Shown: positions 7,225-46,030, numbered from the stretch's first letter. The stretch: 64,000 bases of DNA from Collinsella intestinalis DSM 13280 (GCF_000156175.1 NZ_GG692710.1:326706-390705); one strand, 5' to 3'. Made by a program: numbers and translations. The notes: generated by a model not told the origin, from the letters alone.

Positions 7225-7301
7225 GCGCCATTAGCTCAGTGGATTAGAGCGTCTGCCTCCGGAGCAGAAGGCCGTAGGTTCGAACCCTATATGGCGCACC
7301 A
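7225..7301 (+). tRNA. tRNA-Arg (anticodon CCG)
   Basis: The acceptor arm GCGCCAT at 7225-7231 pairs with ATGGCGC at 7291-7297, followed by ACCA, so CCA is encoded. The anticodon stem TCTGC/GCAGA encloses loop CTCCGGA with anticodon CCG, reading CGG codons. The T arm contains GGTTCGAACCC. The 3' part overlaps the stop codon of the phage recombinase on the other strand, marking the prophage left end. Confidence 0.97.
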
Positions 7302-8705
7302 TTCTAATTTTCCTCGAACCCGCTTGAAGTTAATTCGGGCGGGTTCGCCGTTTTCTTCGTCGTAATTCAGGGTCACGACCACGCTTTCGGGCATGAGCAT
7401 CACCTGATAGACGAACGCCTTAAGAAGATTCCTGTCGTCAAGTTCCTCGCCGTACATGAGGAAGTCTGCGAAGCCCTCCGGGTCTACCTCCTCGGATTGA
7501 GCCGATTCGAGGTCTCTTAGTGCCCTCATCTTTTGCGCCTCAAGCTCCTGTATTCGCTCTTTCGTGCCGGGGACGATGATGCCCTGCTCCACTGCCGAGA
7601 GGAGGTTCTTAAGGCTTTTCTCGGCGTCTGAGAGTGACTTCTGCGCCCTTTCCTTTTCGATGTTCAGGGCCTTATGGGATTGAAGTCCGCACAGCGCCCT
7701 CGCGATCATCATGGCGGTGCTCCTGTCCGAGAGCATCGAGCGGAGAGCGTGCACGATCTCGCCCTCCAAGAGGTCGCGTCTGATGTTCTTCTGGCATTTG
7801 CCGGGGCATGAGTAGTACTCGTAGCGCACGCCCTTGTTCCCATAGCCGGATATGCCCTGCAGGCTTCTGCCGCACTCGCCGCACAGCGCCTTGCCCTTGA
7901 GGGCGTAGTCACCCCAGGATTCGTCGGCTCGGCATTTCCTCGACCTGACTTCCTGCGCTTCCATGAACGTCCCCCTGTCGATGATTTGCGGCATGCCACC
8001 TTCGATCCTGACGTCATCCCAAATGTACACGCCGGTGTACCGCTCGTCGGAGAGAATCTTCCTGGCGAGGTTGTAGTTGCAGGCTCCTCCAGTCGAGTTC
8101 TTCACCCCTCGCTCCGCGAGCATCGTGCCTATCTGGTTGACGGCGATCCCCCTCAGTCGCATCTTGTACGCCCACTTCACGTTCTCGGCGGCATCGGGGT
8201 CGATTTCGAAGCGCCCGTCCTCTGCGGTCCGGTACCCGTATATCCGTACACCGTTGGTCAGGCACTTGAGTGCGTTGCCGCCCATGCCGCGCTTCACCCT
8301 GATCGAGGTCTTTGCCGATTCGACGGCGGCCAGCCCCTCGTAGATCTTCTCTATGAGAATCTTTTCCGGGCCGTCGGGCAGCGCCTCCATGGCGCTCACG
8401 ACCTCCACGCCGTGCTTGGCAAGTTCCTTCTTGTAGATCGGCGCGTCGTATTCGGAGCGCGAGAAACGGTCCATCATGTACACGAGGACGATGTCGCTCT
8501 CTCCGGCGTTGGCGATCATCTCCTGGAATTGCGGCCTGTCGTCCGAGCGCCCGGACATGGCGTAGTCGCTGTATTCCCTGACCACCTCGTAGCCCTCGCG
8601 GTCGCACCACTCGCGGCACACCCTCAGCTGGTCGTCGATTGACGCCTCGCGCTGCTTGGAGCACGAGAACCGGGCGTATATCACGGCCCTCTTAACATCT
8701 GCCAT
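7287..8705 (-). CDS. Large serine recombinase (prophage integrase)
   Basis: This 472-residue protein has an N-terminal resolvase catalytic domain (YARFS with nucleophile Ser14; later MMDRFSR), a central recombinase domain, a zinc ribbon (CGECGRSL and CPGKC around residues 280-315) and a coiled coil (about 345-400). Such enzymes integrate and excise phages by a double-strand-break rotation mechanism. The stop codon TAG lies at 7287-7289 inside the tRNA-Arg gene, so the final residues W-C-A-I are read from the tRNA 3' end antisense. Excision could therefore change the protein's C-terminus. Confidence 0.95.
   Translation of the reverse strand: MADVKRAVIYARFSCSKQREASIDDQLRVCREWCDREGYEVVREYSDYAMSGRSDDRPQFQEMIANAGESDIVLVYMMDRFSRSEYDAPIYKKELAKHGVEVVSAMEALPDGPEKILIEKIYEGLAAVESAKTSIRVKRGMGGNALKCLTNGVRIYGYRTAEDGRFEIDPDAAENVKWAYKMRLRGIAVNQIGTMLAERGVKNSTGGACNYNLARKILSDERYTGVYIWDDVRIEGGMPQIIDRGTFMEAQEVRSRKCRADESWGDYALKGKALCGECGRSLQGISGYGNKGVRYEYYSCPGKCQKNIRRDLLEGEIVHALRSMLSDRSTAMMIARALCGLQSHKALNIEKERAQKSLSDAEKSLKNLLSAVEQGIIVPGTKERIQELEAQKMRALRDLESAQSEEVDPEGFADFLMYGEELDDRNLLKAFVYQVMLMPESVVVTLNYDEENGEPARINFKRVRGKLEWCAI
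7315..7356 (+). terminator. Hairpin and T-rich tract after the tRNA
   Basis: CGAACCCGC at 7315-7323 is complementary to GCGGGTTCG at 7339-7347 and is followed by CCGTTTTCTT. It probably ends the tRNA transcript. It lies within the last codons of the recombinase, so it may also be part of the attachment region. Confidence 0.55.
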
Positions 8706-9190: not shown

Positions 9191-10198
9191 CTATTTGCCT
9201 CCCGAGGACAATTTCCCCTTGGCCATCTTCTCGAAGTCGTTCTCATAGGAGGCGTCCTGGATGCGCTGGAACTCGGCGAAGCGCTCCTTCGCAATCTTGT
9301 CCGCAGTCTTCTTGTTGCGGTTGCCAAGCCCCTTCAGCACGTCGCGTCCGGTAAAGGTCAGGAAGTTGTCCAGTAGGGCCTCGCAGTCCGCCATGCTGGT
9401 GAGAAGCTTTCTCTCCGCGCGGTCCTCGGCGGTGTCGAGGAACATGTTGACGAGCCTGTTGAGTTCGCGTATCTCGTCCTCGGTCAGGTAGTTCTTCGCA
9501 ACGGTGACGTCGCTGGAATGTATTCGGCCCTCGGGGCCTCCCTTCCACGATGTGAGCCCCATGTGAGGCTTGGCGGGGTCGGAGCGCCCTTGCACGATCT
9601 CCGCCGCCGTGTGCCCCGTCACGGCGTAATGGAGCTTGTTCTGCACGGTCGCGTAAAAGCGGTGGGCCACCTCGCTGTCGCGGTCGTAATCATAGGTGCA
9701 TTCCTGGAAGATGTCCGTGATCTTCTGGTACACGCGCCTCTCGCTCGCGCGGATGTCGCGGATGCGCGCGAGCAGCTCGTCGAAGTAGTCCTTGCCGAAT
9801 GGTCTGCCATTGGCGAGCATGTCGTCGTTTAACACGAAGCCCTTGGTAATGTATTCGCGTAGGGTCGCCGTTGCCCACTGGCGGAACCTCGTCGCACGGA
9901 TGGAGTTCACGCGGTATCCCACGGCGATGATGACGTCTAGGTTGTAGTAAACGGGCGGCCTCCCCTGAGTTCTTCCGGAAATTCCGGAAGAAGCCGTTGA
10001 GCTGGCCTTATCAAGTTCGCCGCTCTCAAAGATATTGCCAAGGTGCTCCGAAACGGTTCTTACGTCGACCCCGAATAGCTCGGCCATGGCTTTTTGTGTC
10101 AGCCAGAACGTCTCGTTTGCGTATGAGACCTCGACGGGTACGTTGATTCCACCCGCTTGATATAGGATTATCTCCGCGCTGATCTGTTCCTCTGCCAT
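9191..10198 (-). CDS. RhuM-family protein
   Basis: This 335-residue protein matches the virulence RhuM family: N-terminal region with FWLTQKAMAELFGVDVRTVSEHLGNIF (a phage-antirepressor-like helix-turn-helix), then the YYNLDVIIAVGYRVNSIRATRFRQWAT block and a long helical C-terminal half with EIRELNRLVNMFLDTAEDRA. Biochemical function is not established; family members occur in pathogenicity islands, prophages and defence regions. The ATG at 10198 is chosen because AAGGAGA lies 8 bases upstream; an upstream in-frame Met at 10306 sits next to a hairpin and lacks a binding site. Confidence 0.85.
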   Translation of the reverse strand: MAEEQISAEIILYQAGGINVPVEVSYANETFWLTQKAMAELFGVDVRTVSEHLGNIFESGELDKASSTASSGISGRTQGRPPVYYNLDVIIAVGYRVNSIRATRFRQWATATLREYITKGFVLNDDMLANGRPFGKDYFDELLARIRDIRASERRVYQKITDIFQECTYDYDRDSEVAHRFYATVQNKLHYAVTGHTAAEIVQGRSDPAKPHMGLTSWKGGPEGRIHSSDVTVAKNYLTEDEIRELNRLVNMFLDTAEDRAERKLLTSMADCEALLDNFLTFTGRDVLKGLGNRNKKTADKIAKERFAEFQRIQDASYENDFEKMAKGKLSSGGK

Positions 10199-10297
10199 CG
10201 CGTCTCTCCTTACGTCATCGTGTCGGTCGTTTGCTTCGGTTGATGTATCCTGACTTTGGTACGCCTCCGTGGACTCTAAGTGAGGTGGAGGCTGGTT

Positions 10298-10336
10298 GGG
10301 GGTCATTGCCTGAGGCGATAGCCCCCTTCCTTTTTT
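10298..10336 (+). terminator. Strong hairpin with T-run in a leftward region
   Basis: GGGGGTCATTGCC at 10298-10310 pairs with GGCGATAGCCCCC at 10314-10326 with one mismatch, followed by TTCCTTTTTT. It would stop rightward RNA, although the neighbouring genes run leftward; it may block antisense transcription. Confidence 0.6.
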
Positions 10337-36470: not shown

Positions 36471-38792
36471 ATGGGTCGCACATACACGGGGGAGGTGCAG
36501 GTATCTGGTAGAAACCGTTGGTACCGCGCCTTCATCGACACATACAGTGTAACGAGCGTCAACGACACCACGGCTCGCGTCTCCATCGGCGTGGCACTTG
36601 AGGCGAAGTACATCGCGCAATATGGCGTGCGCCTCGAGGCCTATGTGAACGGTCGGTGCGTGGCGGGCCAGGACGTCGTTCTGAACAACTACGGCGACTG
36701 GGGGAGGGCAGCCACGCTTGCGCCCCTCAACGTCGACGTACCGAGGAACGGAAGCTCTTGGAACTGCTCCGTGCAGGTCCGCGCCTACGGCAAGACCGTC
36801 AACGGGTACGGCTCGGCGGGTGGAGACGTCTGGGCGACCGCCTACATGGGCATCCCGCAGCGCGGTTACTCGAAGCCGAACCCGCCGAAGGGCTGCTCTT
36901 TCGTCCGCGTGTCCGACAACCAGCAAAAGCTGTCCTGGCAGGGCGATTACACCGACATGAACGGCGCTAAGCCCTGGGCCGGTGTGTACGTCGACCGCAG
37001 GACGGATGACGGAAACTGGGTGAACATCGCGGACCTGCCATGGGACGTCACCAACTACACCGATAACTCAACCTCCTCTAACCATAAGTACGAGTACCGC
37101 CTGTGCGCCCATGGGCCGGGCGGGAACTCCAACCACGTGTCCTGCGGCACTACCTACACCACGCCCGCCGCCCCGTCCAAGGTGGAGGCGGTCAAGACGG
37201 GCAACAGCTCCGTGCGCCTCGTGATCCACGACGCGGCGGGCTATGCCCAGGGCCATGAGGCGCAGAGGTCAACTGATGGCGGCAAGAACTGGGCGGCGTT
37301 CAGCGGGACTCACGGCACATCGGGCGGCAAGGCGGTCATTGACGACGCATCTGCGCCGGCGGGCAGCGTGGTATACCGAGTCCGTGCCCACCGGACCAGC
37401 CCCAACGCGCTGAACTCCGGCTGGAGGACCTCTAACTCCGTCATGACCGTGATGCCCCCTAAGGCGCCCGCCGTCTCGGGCGTCGCGGCATCCTACGCCA
37501 CGGGCTCCGCACTCACCGTCAAATGGACTCCAAACCACCCGGACGGTACCAAGCAGAGCGCGGCGCAGGTCGAGATCACCGGGCCTTCGACCGTGACCGA
37601 GGACATCACCGGCGTGGCGACGATCCTTACGCTCAGGTGCAACCAGAAGGGCTCTTGGCGCATCCGCGTGCGCACGAAGGGCCTGCACTCCGATTGGGGC
37701 GCGTGGTCGTCCTACGTCCCGTTCGTTGTCGCCGACCTGCCGCAGGCGTGGGTGGCCAACCCGGGCGTTGACGGAGCCCTTATAGACAGCGCGCCTCTCA
37801 CCGTGGAGGTGAGCGCCTCCGACGAGACGGGCATCGCGTCCGCCACGCTCTCGCTCACCCGCCCAGACGGCACGGTGGTGGGCAGTGTGGACGTAACCGA
37901 CCTCCGTCCCGTGCCCATCGGCTCTTACGAGGCCCTTGAGAACGGCGTGACATACACGCTCACGCTTCACGTGCGGGGTGGCTCCGGCCTCACGACGTCG
38001 GCCAAGCGTACATTCAAGACGCATTGGAGCGAGCCCGCCATCCCGGTTATCGAGGTGACGGACGACGGCAACCTCGCCTGCCACGTCATGGCCAAGAACG
38101 GCACCTCCGCCTACATGGTCGAGGATTCCACACTGATCGGCCCCATGGCCTGCGAGGACGGCGAGCTGTCCATGCTCGGCACTATCATGTTCGAGGACGG
38201 CGAGCTCGTCTTGGGCGACGCCGCGAAGTGCGTGTCGTTCGATGTCGAGCGCGTCATGTCCGACGGCACCTCGTCCAAGGTCGCCGTCGGCATCCTCGAT
38301 GCGCAGGAGGCCATCGACCGCATCCCGCCCCTCAATGAGCCGTTCCGCTACCGCGTGACCGGCTACGCGGAGTCGGGCACGTCCTCGCGCTCCGAGGTGG
38401 AGGCCCACATGCCCTCCAGGGGCATGGCTCTCAACTTCGGCGTCGACGGTTCCGAGGTGCTGATCCTCAACAGCGGCACCTACTCGCAATCGAGTAAGCG
38501 CAGCGTGAGCACGTTCCACTTCGCCGACGGAGGGGAGAACGGGCACCTGCCCGCGTCCTACCCGCTCGACGAGCAGGACGTGTCCACGTCTGTGAGCTTC
38601 GACCTCCTGCGGTCCGATTACGACGCGTTCAGGCGAATCATGGCCGAGCACTGGCACGGCTGGTGGCGCGGCCACTGCGGCGAGAGGGCGTTCGGCCCCA
38701 TGGAGTTCCAGAGCTCCATCAAGAAGCCTGGTATCTTCAGCTGCTCGGCGAACGTGACGCACGACGTGTTCGAGGAGCCCGCCAATGGCTGA
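36471..38792 (+). CDS. Tail protein with FN3-like repeats
   Basis: A 773-residue protein. Several FN3-like modules are visible (PAAPSKVEAVKTGNSSVRLVI; PKAPAVSGVAASYATGSALTV), and the last 100 residues resemble a distal-tail-like end (SKRSVSTFHFADGG; SFDLLRSDYDAFRRIMAEHW). It probably forms part of the tail tip and may contact host surface sugars. It overlaps the next gene by 8 bases. Confidence 0.8.
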   Translation: MGRTYTGEVQVSGRNRWYRAFIDTYSVTSVNDTTARVSIGVALEAKYIAQYGVRLEAYVNGRCVAGQDVVLNNYGDWGRAATLAPLNVDVPRNGSSWNCSVQVRAYGKTVNGYGSAGGDVWATAYMGIPQRGYSKPNPPKGCSFVRVSDNQQKLSWQGDYTDMNGAKPWAGVYVDRRTDDGNWVNIADLPWDVTNYTDNSTSSNHKYEYRLCAHGPGGNSNHVSCGTTYTTPAAPSKVEAVKTGNSSVRLVIHDAAGYAQGHEAQRSTDGGKNWAAFSGTHGTSGGKAVIDDASAPAGSVVYRVRAHRTSPNALNSGWRTSNSVMTVMPPKAPAVSGVAASYATGSALTVKWTPNHPDGTKQSAAQVEITGPSTVTEDITGVATILTLRCNQKGSWRIRVRTKGLHSDWGAWSSYVPFVVADLPQAWVANPGVDGALIDSAPLTVEVSASDETGIASATLSLTRPDGTVVGSVDVTDLRPVPIGSYEALENGVTYTLTLHVRGGSGLTTSAKRTFKTHWSEPAIPVIEVTDDGNLACHVMAKNGTSAYMVEDSTLIGPMACEDGELSMLGTIMFEDGELVLGDAAKCVSFDVERVMSDGTSSKVAVGILDAQEAIDRIPPLNEPFRYRVTGYAESGTSSRSEVEAHMPSRGMALNFGVDGSEVLILNSGTYSQSSKRSVSTFHFADGGENGHLPASYPLDEQDVSTSVSFDLLRSDYDAFRRIMAEHWHGWWRGHCGERAFGPMEFQSSIKKPGIFSCSANVTHDVFEEPANG

Positions 38793-39870
38793 CTGGAAGA
38801 AGAGGTTCTCAAGCTCATACCGCTTCATGCGCGTCTCAAGAGCGACCGGCGCCGAGGTCGAGCGGCTCCGCAACATCCGCACCGGCGGCACGCTCGAGTT
38901 CAATCAGGACTCCGATTACGAGACCGGCACCATCGACTACACGGGGGAACTGTCGCTCGGTGCCGACCTGCTGCGCGTGTACCTTGATGCCGCGTTCCAG
39001 GACGGCACGTCCGAGTCCATCGCCCTCGGCACCTTCATCGTGTCCGCGCCGAAGCGCGACAAGGTGGGCACCGTGGCGACGGGCAGCGCGAGGCTGTCCG
39101 GGCGGCTGCGCGAGGTCGCCGAGGACGAGTTCGACGGCCCCTTGACGGTCCCCGCCGGTACCAACGCGGTCTCCTACGCGGCGGGTCTGCTCCGATCCGC
39201 CGGCCTTGAGGTGGTCGCAGACCCATCGTCCTTCTCGCTCTCATCGACGTGGGCACTGGGCCTCGACAACTCCGGCGGCGGGATGGCGAAGAAGCTTGGG
39301 GCGGTCAACTGCCTGCTCGACCTCGCGGGATTCTCCCCGGCGAGGTGCGACGGTATGGGCAGGGTGATCTTGAGCAGGTATGTCGAGCCCGCCGACAGGC
39401 CGGTGGCCCTAGCGCTTGAGGAGGGCGCGTCCGCGCGGTTCGAGAACTCGGCGGTAGACGAGCGGGACATCGACGATGTGGCCAACGTGGTGCACGCCGT
39501 GTACGAGACGGCGGAGGAGACCGTCATAGGCACCGCCGTCGATTCCGACCCCGCCAGCGAGTTCTCCACGGTGAGTAGGGGATGGCGCAAGGCCAAGTCA
39601 TACACGTTCAGCGACCTGCCGGACGGCTCCACCCAGAAGGAGAGGCAGGCCGCCGCAGACGCCAAGGCCGCCGAGCTCCTGAGGACGCAGGCGTCCCCCA
39701 TCCGGCGCGTGACCGTGACTCACGTCCACGCTCCGGTGTCGGTGGGCGATGCGGTCGGCGTATCGTGGCCTAGCGCGCGCATCGAGGGCAAGTTCGCCAT
39801 CCGCAAGAGAACTCTCACGCTCGTGGGAGGATGCCCGATGGAGTTGGAGGTGCGCAGGTATGAACGGTGA
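38785..39870 (+). CDS. Baseplate/tail-tip protein
   Basis: A 361-residue protein starting with a beta-sandwich (FMRVSRATGAEVERLRNI; GTLEFNQDSDYETGTIDYTG) followed by domains resembling hub-type proteins (VVDERD-like DVANVVHAVYETAEETVIG; PIRRVTVTHVHAPVSVGDAV). It likely builds the central hub of the tail tip. Assignment by order and composition. Confidence 0.75.
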   Translation: MADWKKRFSSSYRFMRVSRATGAEVERLRNIRTGGTLEFNQDSDYETGTIDYTGELSLGADLLRVYLDAAFQDGTSESIALGTFIVSAPKRDKVGTVATGSARLSGRLREVAEDEFDGPLTVPAGTNAVSYAAGLLRSAGLEVVADPSSFSLSSTWALGLDNSGGGMAKKLGAVNCLLDLAGFSPARCDGMGRVILSRYVEPADRPVALALEEGASARFENSAVDERDIDDVANVVHAVYETAEETVIGTAVDSDPASEFSTVSRGWRKAKSYTFSDLPDGSTQKERQAAADAKAAELLRTQASPIRRVTVTHVHAPVSVGDAVGVSWPSARIEGKFAIRKRTLTLVGGCPMELEVRRYER

Positions 39871-40851: not shown

Positions 40852-41757
40852 ATGGCAGATGCCAAGATATTCAACGTAAGCGGTGGAAACTACAGCATCG
40901 TCGATCAGACCGCACGAGACAACGCGTCAAAAGCCTTGCAGGATGCCGAGTACTCCCGGCTCGAAAGCATCGGCGCCTACCCGGGCCGCAACCTCGCCAC
41001 GGTCTTCGCCGAGGAGATCAAGCAGAAGGCGAACGTCTGGGAATGGCTTCGCGCCCGTGTACGCGCAGCGAATTACTCCGGAATCCGCATAGGCGATTAC
41101 ATCAACGTCGTCATCCCGCAGACGGCGCAAGTGGCCTCCCAAACGGTGAGCTATGCCGTCGGTGCCATCGACCCGTATTTCCAGTGCGGCGATACCGCGA
41201 AGGGGCATCACATCGCGATGGTGCCAAAGTCCACCGTCGCGGTTCGCGGCCCGAATGCCGTGAACGAAAGCTACATCCAGTGGCGGAAGACCGCCGACAA
41301 CAACGGAACGAACGAGCAGAAGTGCCCATACCTCCTGAGCCATCTGCATGAGTGGGAGAACGAGCATTTCTTGTCCGCTCTGCCTGCGGAGGTGCAGGCG
41401 GCCATCATGCCCCATCGCGTCCTCCTTGAGGAACGCTACTCATCCTCCGGCAAGCTCACCGAGCCTTCGGGTTGGTCCTGGCAGGACCTCGGCAAGATCT
41501 GGTCCCTCAGCGAGGTGGAGGTCTACGGCCTGAATGCGTGGAGCAAGCCCGGCTACGGCACTGGCTTCGATTGCCAGTTCCCGATTTTCAAGCAGACAAA
41601 GGACCGCATCATGGGCGGTCGCGTCAATTGGTGGCTGCGGTCGGTGTCCGGCTCGTCCTCGTCCTACGTGTGCTACGTCGGCTACAGCGGGTATGCCACC
41701 TGCTATTCCCCGACGCATGGCTGGGTGCGGCCCCGCCCCTGCTTCCTCGTAGGTTAG
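40852..41757 (+). CDS. DGR target: fibre-tip C-type lectin-fold protein
   Basis: A 301-residue protein. The C-terminal half has the DUF6273/C-type lectin-like pattern: EEYS-type segment ERYSSSGKLTEPSGWSW, then NWWLRSVSG and a final WVRPRPCF. The VR covers residues 256-299. Residues 258, 272, 277, 278, 279, 281, 283, 284, 285, 289, 290 and 297 differ from the template-encoded ones. The conserved WWLRS and WVRPRP parts hold the fold while the loop between them varies. As the fibre tip it would bind the bacterial receptor and change host range. Confidence 0.93.
   Translation: MADAKIFNVSGGNYSIVDQTARDNASKALQDAEYSRLESIGAYPGRNLATVFAEEIKQKANVWEWLRARVRAANYSGIRIGDYINVVIPQTAQVASQTVSYAVGAIDPYFQCGDTAKGHHIAMVPKSTVAVRGPNAVNESYIQWRKTADNNGTNEQKCPYLLSHLHEWENEHFLSALPAEVQAAIMPHRVLLEERYSSSGKLTEPSGWSWQDLGKIWSLSEVEVYGLNAWSKPGYGTGFDCQFPIFKQTKDRIMGGRVNWWLRSVSGSSSSYVCYVGYSGYATCYSPTHGWVRPRPCFLVG
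41618..41746 (+). repeat. DGR variable repeat (VR)
   Basis: A 129-bp copy of the TR lying 728 bases upstream of it. Thirteen bases differ and all thirteen are A in TR: changes go to G, T and C. Outside these sites the two copies are identical, including the GC-rich 3' end GGGTGCGGCCCCGCCCCTG, which acts as the initiation of mutagenic homology. Confidence 0.97.
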
Positions 41758-41772
41758 GCCGTAGGCCTAGCC
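41752..41772 (+). promoter_or_regulatory. Hairpin/cruciform after the VR
   Basis: GGTTAGGCC at 41752-41760, loop GTA, GGCCTAGCC at 41764-41772: nine pairs with one G-T. It starts five bases after the VR and overlaps the target stop codon. In the Bordetella phage DGR a hairpin at the same place is needed for efficient target use. Confidence 0.85.
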
Positions 41773-41790
41773 TATGCGCTACACTTGACG

Positions 41791-41815
41791 ACGCCCCGCC
41801 TTGCGCGGGGCGTTT
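41791..41815 (+). terminator. GC-rich hairpin between target and Avd genes
   Basis: ACGCCCCGC at 41791-41799 pairs with GCGGGGCGT at 41805-41813 around CTTGC, then TT. It has the stem of an intrinsic terminator but only three T, so partial read-through into the Avd/TR/RT unit is likely. Confidence 0.6.
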
Positions 41816-41852
41816 GCCGCGAATGCGGACCGTTGCTGTCGATTGGATCTAT

Positions 41853-42323
41853 ATGAGCGGCGTGCTTGCCAGGAACAGGACATTGTCCCAGTTCGAGTTC
41901 TACCGGAACGCCATCGCCATTCGCGTCGAGGTGAACAGGCTGATGGCGAAGGACAAGGTGTGCCCCAAGGCGTTCCGCCTGCTCAACGGCGTCCCAACGG
42001 TCGAGACGGCGAGGAGCATCGTCTACAACATCAACCGCGCCGACCATTTCTACCCGAACACCAGCGCAAACGTGATAGAGCGGAGGAAGTACATCACGCT
42101 CGCCATCGCCGACTGCGACCAGTTGCTTCAGGACATGCAGTGCCTGATCGCCATGGACGTGACATCGAACGTCAACGTCTTTGAGCGCGTGACCCTCATG
42201 ATCGACAGGGAGATCGAGCTTCTTAAGGGCTATCGCAAATCGGTGAAGCTCACCGGCGCACAGACGCCCGAGCAGAGACTCGCCGCCTTGGAGGAAGAAA
42301 TTGAGCGATTGCGTTCTGTATAA
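41853..42323 (+). CDS. avd: DGR accessory variability determinant (Avd-like)
   Basis: A 156-residue, almost all-helical protein (SQFEFYRNAIAIRVEVNRLMA; CPKAFRLLNGVPTVETARSIV; ERRKYITLAIADCDQLLQDMQ; FERVTLMIDREIELLKGYRKS) fitting the four-helix-bundle Avd family. Avd pentamers bind the RT and TR RNA and are required for template-primed cDNA synthesis. An in-frame ATG at 41823 is an alternative start; neither has a clear ribosome binding site. TR starts 22 bases after its stop. Confidence 0.85.
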   Translation: MSGVLARNRTLSQFEFYRNAIAIRVEVNRLMAKDKVCPKAFRLLNGVPTVETARSIVYNINRADHFYPNTSANVIERRKYITLAIADCDQLLQDMQCLIAMDVTSNVNVFERVTLMIDREIELLKGYRKSVKLTGAQTPEQRLAALEEEIERLRSV

Positions 42324-42345
42324 TGTCCCCGGTCACGCCTTGAAA

Positions 42346-42474
42346 GTCGCATCAATTGGTGGCTGCGGTCGGTGTCCGGCTCGTCCTCGTCCAACGTGTG
42401 CTACGTCAACAACAACGGGAATGCCAACTACAATTCCCCGACGAATGACTGGGTGCGGCCCCGCCCCTGATTCC
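42346..42474 (+). repeat. DGR template repeat (TR)
   Basis: A 129-bp noncoding template. It has 24 adenines, 13 of which are changed in VR. Adenines are concentrated in AAC/AAT codons in the VR frame; mutation of these never creates a stop. Its own final codon in that frame is TGA (42468-42470), which is TGC in VR, so this last position must lie outside or at the edge of the transferred segment. Confidence 0.97.
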
Positions 42475-42673
42475 CTTATCGCCAGACCGAGTAGGCTCGC
42501 CCGAAAGCCGTGCAGAAAGAGGAAGGAAGGCGCGACCATCGGCCACACGGCCGTGAATATGCACCCCGCGCAGAAGGGCGGACGCTTCTTGCATGGTCGG
42601 ACTCTCCGGCGTTCGGTCCGATTTCATGCCCTTTCTGCAAGCGGCTGCGGAGCGCCATTGCTAGCCGTGCGGG
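42475..42673 (+). ncRNA. TR-RT spacer RNA
   Basis: A 199-base noncoding stretch joining TR to the RT gene. In studied DGRs this spacer is part of the TR RNA and folds with RT and Avd to start cDNA synthesis. Here CGACCAT (42533-42539) pairs with ATGGTCG (42593-42599), and GCACCCCGCGC (42561-42571) pairs with GTGCGGGGTGC (42667-42677), enclosing the RT GTG start. The two stems cross each other, a possible pseudoknot. Confidence 0.7.
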
Positions 42674-43843
42674 GTGCCCGACTTGAATTCTGACGAGCGC
42701 CGAGAGGCGAGAAGGGCGAGACGCGCCGAGAAGAGGCGGCGGAACAGAGATTCCCGGATCGAGGGGCTGGACATCGAGGCGGTGGCCGACCTCAACGCGC
42801 TGTACCGCGCCGCGATGCAGGCCGGAAGGGGGGTCTCTTGGAAGGCGTCGATCCAGCGATACCAGAAGGACGTACTCAAGAACATCGTGCGGACTCGCCG
42901 CGACATCCTCGATGGCAACGACCTGCACAGGGGCTTCATCAACTTCGACATCGTGGAGCGTGGCAAGAGGCGCCACATAAGCTCGGTGCACATAGCTGAG
43001 CGCGTCCCGCAGAAAGCGCTGGCGCAAGAGGTCCTTATCCCGGCAACCGTCCCGACCGTGATCGGGGCGAATTCCGCCAACATCAAGGGCAGGGGCACGG
43101 ATTACGCCGTCAGGCTCATGAAGAGGCATCTCGCCGACCACTACCGCAAGCACGGCGCCGAGGGCTACATCCTACAGATGGATTTCCGAGACTACTTCGC
43201 CAGGATCGCGCACGAGCCCCTCAAGAGGCAGCTTTCATCTCGACTCGACGATGGCAGGGTTCTCTCGCTTGCGGAGAGCTTCATCGACGTGCAGGGTGAC
43301 GTCGGGCTCGGACTCGGCAGCGAGCCCAACCAGATATGCGCCGTGGCGTTCCCAAACGCCATCGACCATTTCGTAACCGAGATGTGCGGCGTCGAGGCCT
43401 ACGGGCGATATATGGATGACAGCTACTGCATCCACACGAGCAAGGAGCATCTCGTCATGGTCAAGTCGGCCGTCGAGATACTTTGCGGCGATTACGGAAT
43501 AGAGCTCCATCCGCGCAAGACGCAGATCGTCAAGCTGTCCCACGGGTTCACGTTCCTCAAGAAGAAGTTCTTCTACTCTGAGTCGGGGAGGGTGATCGTG
43601 AGGCCGTGCAGGGACACCATCACGAGGGAGAGGCGAAAGCTCAAGGCCCTCAAGCGGATGCTCGACTCCGGAGACATCACCATGGAGCAGATAGAGCAGC
43701 AGTACCAATCCTGGAGGGGCGGCCTCGTGCACCTCGACGCACACGACACCCTTCTCTCGATGGACGCCCTGTATCGCGAGCTATTCGGAGGGTCTGTGAA
43801 CGGCAACCCCCCCCCCGCAACGGTAGTTAGGATCGCGGCTTAA
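42674..43843 (+). CDS. DGR reverse transcriptase
   Basis: A 389-residue RT, compact as in DGRs. Motif A is QMDFRDYF with Asp170, motif B the DGR-type GLGSEPNQ (213-220), and the catalytic YMDD is at 246-249, followed by FLKKKFFYSESGRV. There is no endonuclease, maturase or RNase H domain. It makes adenine-mutagenic cDNA from TR RNA with Avd. GTG at 42674 or a TTG at 42683, with GGGGTG before it, may start translation. The C-terminus contains a C10 run. Confidence 0.95.
   Translation: MPDLNSDERREARRARRAEKRRRNRDSRIEGLDIEAVADLNALYRAAMQAGRGVSWKASIQRYQKDVLKNIVRTRRDILDGNDLHRGFINFDIVERGKRRHISSVHIAERVPQKALAQEVLIPATVPTVIGANSANIKGRGTDYAVRLMKRHLADHYRKHGAEGYILQMDFRDYFARIAHEPLKRQLSSRLDDGRVLSLAESFIDVQGDVGLGLGSEPNQICAVAFPNAIDHFVTEMCGVEAYGRYMDDSYCIHTSKEHLVMVKSAVEILCGDYGIELHPRKTQIVKLSHGFTFLKKKFFYSESGRVIVRPCRDTITRERRKLKALKRMLDSGDITMEQIEQQYQSWRGGLVHLDAHDTLLSMDALYRELFGGSVNGNPPPATVVRIAA
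43807..43816 (+). repeat. C10 homopolymer near the RT 3' end
   Basis: Ten C follow GGCAA and encode Asn-Pro-Pro-Pro, nine codons before the stop. Length changes would replace the last residues of the RT and could read past the present stop into element C. Confidence 0.85.
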
Positions 43844-43863
43844 TCTCACGCCGCAAATACCAT
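43843..43863 (+). promoter_or_regulatory. Late element C, before the lysis module
   Basis: ATCTCACGCCGC, then AAAT, then ACCAT. It begins at the last base of the RT stop codon and its final CCAT is the first part of the hairpin described next. It starts a separate unit for the carbohydrate-binding and lysis genes. Confidence 0.6.
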
Positions 43864-43895
43864 GGTCGCACCGAAAGAAAGGGGTGCGACCATGG
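43860..43895 (+). promoter_or_regulatory. Perfect 13-bp hairpin burying a start codon
   Basis: CCATGGTCGCACC at 43860-43872 pairs without mismatch with GGTGCGACCATGG at 43883-43895. The loop GAAAGAAAGG and adjoining GG hold the ribosome binding site and the 3' arm contains the ATG at 43892-43894. In RNA the start codon would be closed. The feature strongly suggests translational control of the lysis operon's first gene. Confidence 0.8.
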
Positions 43896-44338
43896 CACTT
43901 ACGGAAGAGGAAGAGTCCGCAATCCGCGGAATCATCGAGATCTACAAAGGGAAGTCCGGCGGCCTATCTGACGATGTGGCAACTTCCGCTTACGGGTTAT
44001 TCCCCGAATTCAATTCCGGCGGCCATACGTATGCCGACGGGGAGCGCGTCAGCCATAGAGGCGTCCTCTACACCTGCATCCAGCCTCATACTTCCCAGCC
44101 CGACTGGGCTCCCGATGTGGCCCACAGCCTGTGGGCCAAGACCATCGAATATGGCGGTTCCGAGAGCGGAAACGACGAGGTTCCGGAGTGGGTGCAACCG
44201 GAGTCCACGAACCCCTACCCGAAGGGCGCTCGCGTGAAGAAGGACGGGAAGGTCTGGGAATCGCTCGTTGACAACAACGTCTGGGTTCCCGGCGCCATAG
44301 GCACCGAGGGCGTCTGGAAGGACGTCACCAATGCCTGA
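43892..44338 (+). CDS. Carbohydrate-binding protein of the lysis module
   Basis: A 148-residue protein with two CBM5/12-like modules: YADGERVSHRGVLYTCIQPH with PDWAPDVAHSLWA (about 50-90), and NPYPKGARVKKDGKVWESL with NVWVPGAIGTEGVW (about 108-145). Such modules bind surface polysaccharide. It may be part of the virion tip or helps lysis. Its start codon is inside a hairpin. The last bases overlap the next gene. Confidence 0.75.
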   Translation: MALTEEEESAIRGIIEIYKGKSGGLSDDVATSAYGLFPEFNSGGHTYADGERVSHRGVLYTCIQPHTSQPDWAPDVAHSLWAKTIEYGGSESGNDEVPEWVQPESTNPYPKGARVKKDGKVWESLVDNNVWVPGAIGTEGVWKDVTNA

Positions 44339-44980: not shown

Positions 44981-46030
44981 ATGGCAATGAACGGAATCGA
45001 CATCTCCAACTGGCAGAAGGGCATCGACCTCGCGGCCGTCCCGTGCGACTTCGTCATCGCGAAGGCCACGCAAGGAACCGGTTACACATCGCCCGACTGC
45101 GTGCGTCAGGTCGAGCAGGCAATGTCGCTCGGCAAGAAGGTCGGCGTCTACCACTACATCGGCGGCCAGGGCGCGGTCTCCGAGATGGACTTCTTCATCG
45201 ACTCCATCAAGAACTGGGTCGGCAAGGCCATGCTCGTCCTCGATTGGGAGCAGGGCGAGAACTCTGCGTGGGGCAACTTGGGCTACCTCGAGCAGTGCAT
45301 CAAGCGCGTCATCGAGCGCGCCGGCATCCCACCCGTGGTCTACTCTTCCGCGTCCGTCTTCCCGTGGGACCTGTGCAAGAAGCACAACTGCGGTGCATGG
45401 GTCGCGCAGTACGCCGACAACAACGCCACCGGCTACCAGGACTCCCCGTGGAACGAGGGTAAGTACGGCTGCATGATGCGACAGTATTCCAGCCACGGCC
45501 GACTTCCCGGGTACGGCGGCAACCTCGACCTGAACAAGTTCTATGGCGACGCCGCCGCTTGGGACCGCTACGCCAATCCCAAGGGCTCAGCTCAGCCCGC
45601 CCCCCAGCCGCAGCCGACCCCTCATCCGACTGCCCCGCAGGGCTCAACCCTCGATCTTGTCGACCGCGTCATGCGCGGCGAGTTCGGTGACGGCGAGGCC
45701 CGCCGTGCCGCTCTCGGCACCCGCTACGACGAGGTGCAGAACTTCATCAACCACATCGACCAGGCGAGCGTCGACACGCTCGTGGCCGAGGTCAAGACAG
45801 GCCGATATGGCAACAACCCCATTCGTGAACGCGTTCTTGGCTCCCGCTACAAGGCCGTTCAGGACAAGATCAACGGGGTTTCGCAGCTGGCGCGCGTCTA
45901 CATCGTCAAGTCCGGAGACACGCTCTCGGGCATCGCGGCGAAGCTCGGCACGACCTATCAGGCGCTCGCCAAGAAGAACGGGATTTCGAACCCGAATCGC
46001 ATCTACGCAGGGCAGAAGATCAAGTACTAG
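44981..46030 (+). CDS. Endolysin: GH25 muramidase with CW_7 and LysM
   Basis: A 349-residue lysin. Residues 1-205 are a GH25 muramidase with Asp7 (GIDISNWQ), Asp88 and Glu90 (VLDWEQ). A Pro/Gln linker follows (206-225). Two CW_7 wall-binding repeats lie at about 227-263 and 267-303 ([42 protein letters not shown]). A LysM ends the protein ([20 protein letters not shown]). It cuts peptidoglycan at the end of the lytic cycle. Confidence 0.95.

Follow-up and report, generated by a model that had tools for sequence, protein, structure and literature searches.

What is understood of the mechanism of diversity-generating retroelements (DGRs) rests largely on the phage BPP-1. Its spacer RNA folds, recruits the bRT-Avd complex and primes cDNA synthesis (PMC12875486). 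Phage DGRs from across the microbiome have been inventoried and sorted into classes in large surveys (PMC8144416). In addition, DGRs with the same architecture as the one reported here have been published from Eggerthella lenta prophages, and that of DSM2243phi4 was shown to be active in the lysogen (PMC8778435).

The window analysed here is a stretch of 64,000 nucleotides from Collinsella intestinalis DSM 13280, and all positions are counted from its first letter. A complete DGR was found at 40852-43843, on the + strand, in a siphophage-type prophage. Its parts follow one another in the order target gene, VR, post-VR hairpin, Avd, TR, spacer and DGR reverse transcriptase (RT), all of which were recovered, as an earlier note on this DNA had claimed for a coriobacterial prophage. 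The DGR is real and has all its parts; its kind is well known, and the phage that hosts it is new. Judged from its sequence, we estimate at about 95% the probability that it is complete and probably functional, belongs to the phage DGRs that contain Avd, and works by the mechanism proposed below. The features are the following.

7287-46030 (no strand assigned): host prophage, from gene content and the end of an IMG/VR contig at 46030
7287-8705 (- strand): serine integrase, overlapping the end of a tRNA gene, left side of the prophage
40852-41757 (+ strand): target gene, 301 aa, C-terminal DUF6273, putative receptor-binding tail tip protein (Pfam, VR-bearing homologues, AF2 model)
41618-41746 (+ strand): VR, with 12 adenine-templated differences at 41623-41720, plus the fixed site 41742
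41727-41739 (+ strand): G/C-only run of 13 nt, IMH-like core, by direct reading; identical in TR at 42455-42467
41742 (+ strand): fixed VR C, TR partner A at 42470, probable 3' limit of diversification
41750-41774 (+ strand): post-VR hairpin/cruciform, TAGGTTAGGCC-GTA-GGCCTAGCCTA, containing the target stop codon
41791-41813 (+ strand): GC-rich hairpin followed by TTT, terminator-like
41853-42323 (+ strand): Avd homologue, 156 aa from the ATG at 41853, with a possible in-frame upstream ATG at 41823 (PHROG, AF2/Foldseek)
42346-42474 (+ strand): TR, intergenic, between avd and RT
42477-42697 (+ strand): structured spacer RNA, Rfam RT-2 (RF03077), from a covariance model (131.9 bits, gathering 40)
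42683-43843 (+ strand): DGR RT with YMDD and the motif LGSEPNQ; start probably TTG 42683, GTG 42674 possible
44981-46030 (downstream of the DGR): endolysin (GH25/LysM), right end of the prophage

The prophage encodes terminase, portal, head protease, scaffold, capsid, major tail protein and tape measure. A holin and the GH25/LysM endolysin lie 3' of the DGR. The target protein would sit at the tail tip, given the gene order, with a tail protein of PHROG 1887 (38785-39870) encoded just upstream. An IMG/VR contig (UViG 2562617146, 38744 bases) has its end precisely at position 46030, and the 9.4 kb that were compared show no difference from the window; it is probably from the same isolate as the window. 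A search for direct-repeat attachment sites of at least 13 nt flanking the prophage found none, as expected since the integrase is a serine integrase. Two further genes are of note, one for a RhuM-family protein in the early region (9191-10306, - strand) and one for a small protein with a CBM5/12 carbohydrate-binding module (43862-44338), directly 3' of the RT.

TR and VR are 129 nt each and 90% identical, and the 129-nt repeat has exactly these two copies in the whole 1.81-Mb genome. DGRs are recognized by differences confined to TR adenines. Here, as the earlier note had counted, all 13 differences fall on TR adenines, and one of the 13 is fixed and non-mutagenic. With 24 adenines among the 129 positions, the hypergeometric p is about 1e-11. 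The codon changes listed in that note were likewise recovered exactly, as codon differences between TR and VR. A second mark of DGRs, a VR at the 3' end of the target gene with an IMH and a hairpin, is represented by the G/C run, the A/C mismatch and an 11-bp hairpin. This hairpin, which had also been proposed before, starts 3 nt beyond VR and has 11-bp arms around a GTA loop (z -3.6). In the relatives, post-VR hairpins are present in 45% of loci, as against 1.5% of shuffles and 6% after TR.

The target protein matches Pfam DUF6273 (5.7e-14) and its homologues in relatives bear the VR. Its AF2 model (pLDDT 89) matches phage DUF6273 and tail-fibre proteins in BFVD. The lectin fold suggested earlier for this protein is not supported: the Pfam assignment is DUF6273, and no C-type lectin is among the matches of the AF2 model to solved structures in the PDB. 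A sequence profile of the target gave no convincing relatives in the PDB either.

The same search with a profile of the Avd-like protein found no convincing relatives. On the other hand, this protein matches PHROG 3206 ('Avd protein of DGR'), weakly, at 3.5e-5, and its AF2 model (pLDDT 85) is a helical bundle that Foldseek aligns with chain 8ub7_C of the BPP-1 DGR RNP (TMt 0.72, E 0.92, prob 0.97), in agreement with the helical Avd-like protein announced before. The model also matches S23-family bundles. The space between VR and TR holds an ORF of comparable length in 137 loci, and about 60 of these ORFs show significant similarity to the window Avd.

The RT start was placed by alignment with the ATG of relatives. 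The protein is the compact YMDD enzyme that had been described, and matches PHROG 1423 ('Reverse transcriptase') at 2.5e-67. A better match to group II introns than to DGRs would have told against the assignment, but the best match of its profile is the DGR RNP structure 8ub7 (2.6e-27), ahead of the best group II intron RT (1.5e-9). The NCBIfam group II match reaches 60 bits, far under the 300-bit cut-off. The consensus of motif 4 in DGR RTs is [ILV]GxxxSQ. The window has LGSEPNQ, with N in place of S, and BPP-1 has IGSLTSQ; among the relatives, 54 have NQ and 118 have SQ.

Relatives were gathered by an alignment scan of genome contigs, a single-sequence RT scan having found nothing. An adenine-biased repeat pair is present in 155/174 RT loci examined, some of which are the same DNA from two collections. 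Three pairs of Collinsella loci with identical TRs differ in VR at TR adenines and nowhere else, with 10 vs 0 differences (L010/L015), 10 vs 0 (L016/L115) and 17 vs 0 (L143/L144, whose upstream 500 bp are identical). For L010/L015, 12/129 positions differ in VR, 0/129 in TR and 84/3850 in the rest of the locus (VR enrichment p 5e-5). More generally, VR variation at non-adenine TR positions, named in the earlier note as a finding that would speak against a DGR, was looked for among related VRs and is essentially absent from loci sharing an identical TR core. A point on the other side is that two assemblies of C. stercoris DSM 13279 have identical VRs. Because relatives with identical TRs differ in VR only at TR adenines, the family is read as active, and mutagenic homing, as judged from these sequences, is continuing in the DGR family of the Collinsella relatives.

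The window element itself could nevertheless be decayed or silent, its parts still visible but no longer retrohoming in the host. A single VR state is known for its TR: the sole further copy found, in UViG 2562617146, has an identical VR, and an IMG/VR search by TR/VR pattern found no other VR variant. The low similarity of its Avd to characterised Avd and the N of RT motif 4 also point in that direction. However, the reading frames of target, Avd and RT are intact, the present VR carries 12 diversified sites, and the motif 4 variant is common to Collinsella relatives with varying VRs. Silencing is hence unlikely, and a functional element is the preferred reading.

Between TR and RT, the window matches Rfam RT-2 over the full model (positions 1-222). 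Rfam Phage_DGR (RF03022) has no match in the window, while the BPP-1 control matches it at 104.7 bits. RT-2 was detected in 38/51 scanned RT loci, most of them with a TR/VR pair, and in 0/14 control genomes. It starts 1-19 nt (mostly 2-4) past the TR end in 32/33 measured loci, which span Coriobacteria, Clostridia, Spirochaetes and others; in the remaining locus, the TR call is truncated. Across 22 DGR spacers, compensatory changes affect 26/35 predicted pairs. Rfam 15 refined the RT-2 structure by covariation, in a paper that makes no mention of retroelements (PMC11701678). By position and conservation, RT-2 is to be regarded as the counterpart here of the BPP-1 spacer RNA.

Alternatively, RT-2 might be an independent RNA, for example a regulator of the RT mRNA, that lies between TR and RT by chance. 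Its closing stem (42664-42697) does hold a GGGG, and the probable RT start, TTG 42683, follows about 8 nt later; relatives have ATG or GTG at that place. Such independence is quite improbable in view of the narrow spacing from TR, kept across several bacterial groups, and of the fact that the same place in BPP-1 is occupied by an Rfam family named as a DGR RNA. A spacer RNA of the DGR is therefore retained. It is possible that the folded template RNA masks the RT ribosome-binding site, which would let it switch between serving as template and as messenger. This possibility is confined to the Collinsella clade; relatives outside it have separate AGGAGG sites.

Two loci show unusual arrangements of these RNAs. 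A Spirochaetaceae MAG contig (L054) carries tandem RT-2 RNAs, at 272-509 and 653-895, before one RT. A C. aerofaciens genome (L191, G014:C6:36000-54000) has two convergent RT-2 DGRs about 5.6 kb apart on one contig, one on the + strand at about 5.2-7.4 kb and the other on the - strand; one of the RTs has an in-frame TGA.

Codon 297 reads TGA in TR and TGC in VR, in frame, and had been listed in the earlier note as a mutagenic loss of a stop (stop297C). If the A-to-C change were a real mutagenic one, it could serve as a programmed length switch that extends the target tail, and the identical TGA/TGC is found in 33/74 non-redundant pairs. In all, 104 non-redundant TR/VR pairs were compared, 74 of them with a TR adenine at the end position. 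The VR base opposite this adenine is C in 73/74; the lone exception (L168) is no VR but another type of repeat. By comparison, VR has A opposite the remaining TR adenines of those loci in 1173 cases, G in 485, T in 324 and C in 205, that is, 9% C. Moreover, in 14 of the 74 pairs the end-site codon is GGN or CGN (GGA, CGA in TR), so that any base would be synonymous, and VR still has C in every one. Random mutagenesis does not account for this, and selection on the protein does not either; the base is therefore not rewritten. The programmed stop-codon switch was rejected on these counts and is scarcely credible, and stop297C drops out of the list of mutagenic changes.

Read across these alignments, the difference at 41742/42470 is fixed, marks the 3' end of information transfer and is no product of mutagenesis. 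The cDNA-derived sequence likely ends before 41742, and the base likely helps to tell donor from recipient. It follows closely on the G/C-only run, at the place where BPP-1 has its border of information transfer and the IMH/IMH* mismatches (PMC3240598). The A/C end site is also present in Faecalibacterium and Acutalibacter phages, and four phages do not follow the rule, namely BPP-1, Vibrio VP58.5, VHML and Pseudoalteromonas ACA1. From its absence in BPP-1 and these three proteobacterial phages and its presence elsewhere, it belongs to one branch of DGRs. In Collinsella sp. An7 (L019/L033), an exception to the pattern, TR lacks the terminal adenine and both TR and VR have C. If every TR-adenine difference is counted as a mutation, diversification comes out one site too high for each element, and the miscounted site can invent a 'stop codon loss'.

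A broader reading, in which RT-2, to which the sources consulted assign no role, is the template-spacer RNA of a large gut-phage DGR lineage and the invariant A (TR)/C (VR) base is both the whole discriminator of donor and recipient and the 3' border of transfer, has about an even chance of being right. Neither side result is stated in the literature searched for RT-2 with DGRs, for Rfam with DGRs and for Collinsella with DGRs, a search outside of which the original RT-2 publication falls.

The proposed mechanism would run as follows. A transcript would cover the end of avd, TR and the spacer, and its 3' part would fold into RT-2. The folded RNA would recruit the RT-Avd complex and position cDNA synthesis at the TR/spacer border, with priming presumably in the spacer. 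RT would misincorporate opposite TR adenines. The cDNA would then replace the VR of the DUF6273 tail-tip gene, so that the presumed receptor-binding surface could be randomised at as many as about 13 codons. The 13-nt G/C run, together with the hairpin just past VR, may guide homing. The one base past the G/C run that is A in TR and C in VR would stay outside the transferred stretch and mark the asymmetry of donor and recipient.

The window element is one more receptor-diversifying phage system in a common human gut genus. Its main interest reaches beyond the element itself, to the role of the RT-2 spacer and the one-base TR/VR discriminator of a DGR lineage. For this gut-phage branch, two precise and testable handles result: a conserved, covarying spacer RNA, which at least 38 loci carry, and one fixed base that sets TR apart from VR. 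They bear on where cDNA synthesis begins and on how template and target are distinguished.

Compared with BPP-1, the element has the same order of target, VR, hairpin, Avd, TR, spacer and RT and the same adenine-specific mutagenesis. Both have a G/C-only run at the VR end, (GC)14 in BPP-1 (PMC3240598), and a post-VR hairpin in the same place and role. The RTs are homologous (8ub7), the window RT having the same length as Brt. However, the BPP-1 spacer is Phage_DGR RF03022, whereas that of the window is RT-2. In addition, BPP-1 has several IMH/IMH* mismatches, the first of them off a TR adenine, whereas the window pair has one A/C base before homology ends. As for Rfam RF03077, the window spacer fits the whole model at a high score, but the name of the entry makes no link to DGRs.

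The E. lenta prophage DGRs come from the same bacterial class, with target (mtd), avd, TR/VR of about 130 bp and RT in the same order, a likeness drawn from the published description of elements in other hosts and phages; the spacer RNA and the fixed A/C site are not described in the part of that paper used here (PMC8778435). The earlier suggestion that this set of target, Avd and RT may be undescribed in a coriobacterial phage stands for the locus itself, which was not found in a literature search for Collinsella with DGRs, but not for coriobacterial DGRs as such, since those of E. lenta are published. Two phages with other target proteins and hosts share the distinctive features of the window element. 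In Roseburia phage Shimadzu, the RT is 48% identical and Avd is annotated; in Faecalibacterium phage Pioen, the RT is 29% identical. Both have an RT-2 spacer and the end site with A in TR and C in VR.
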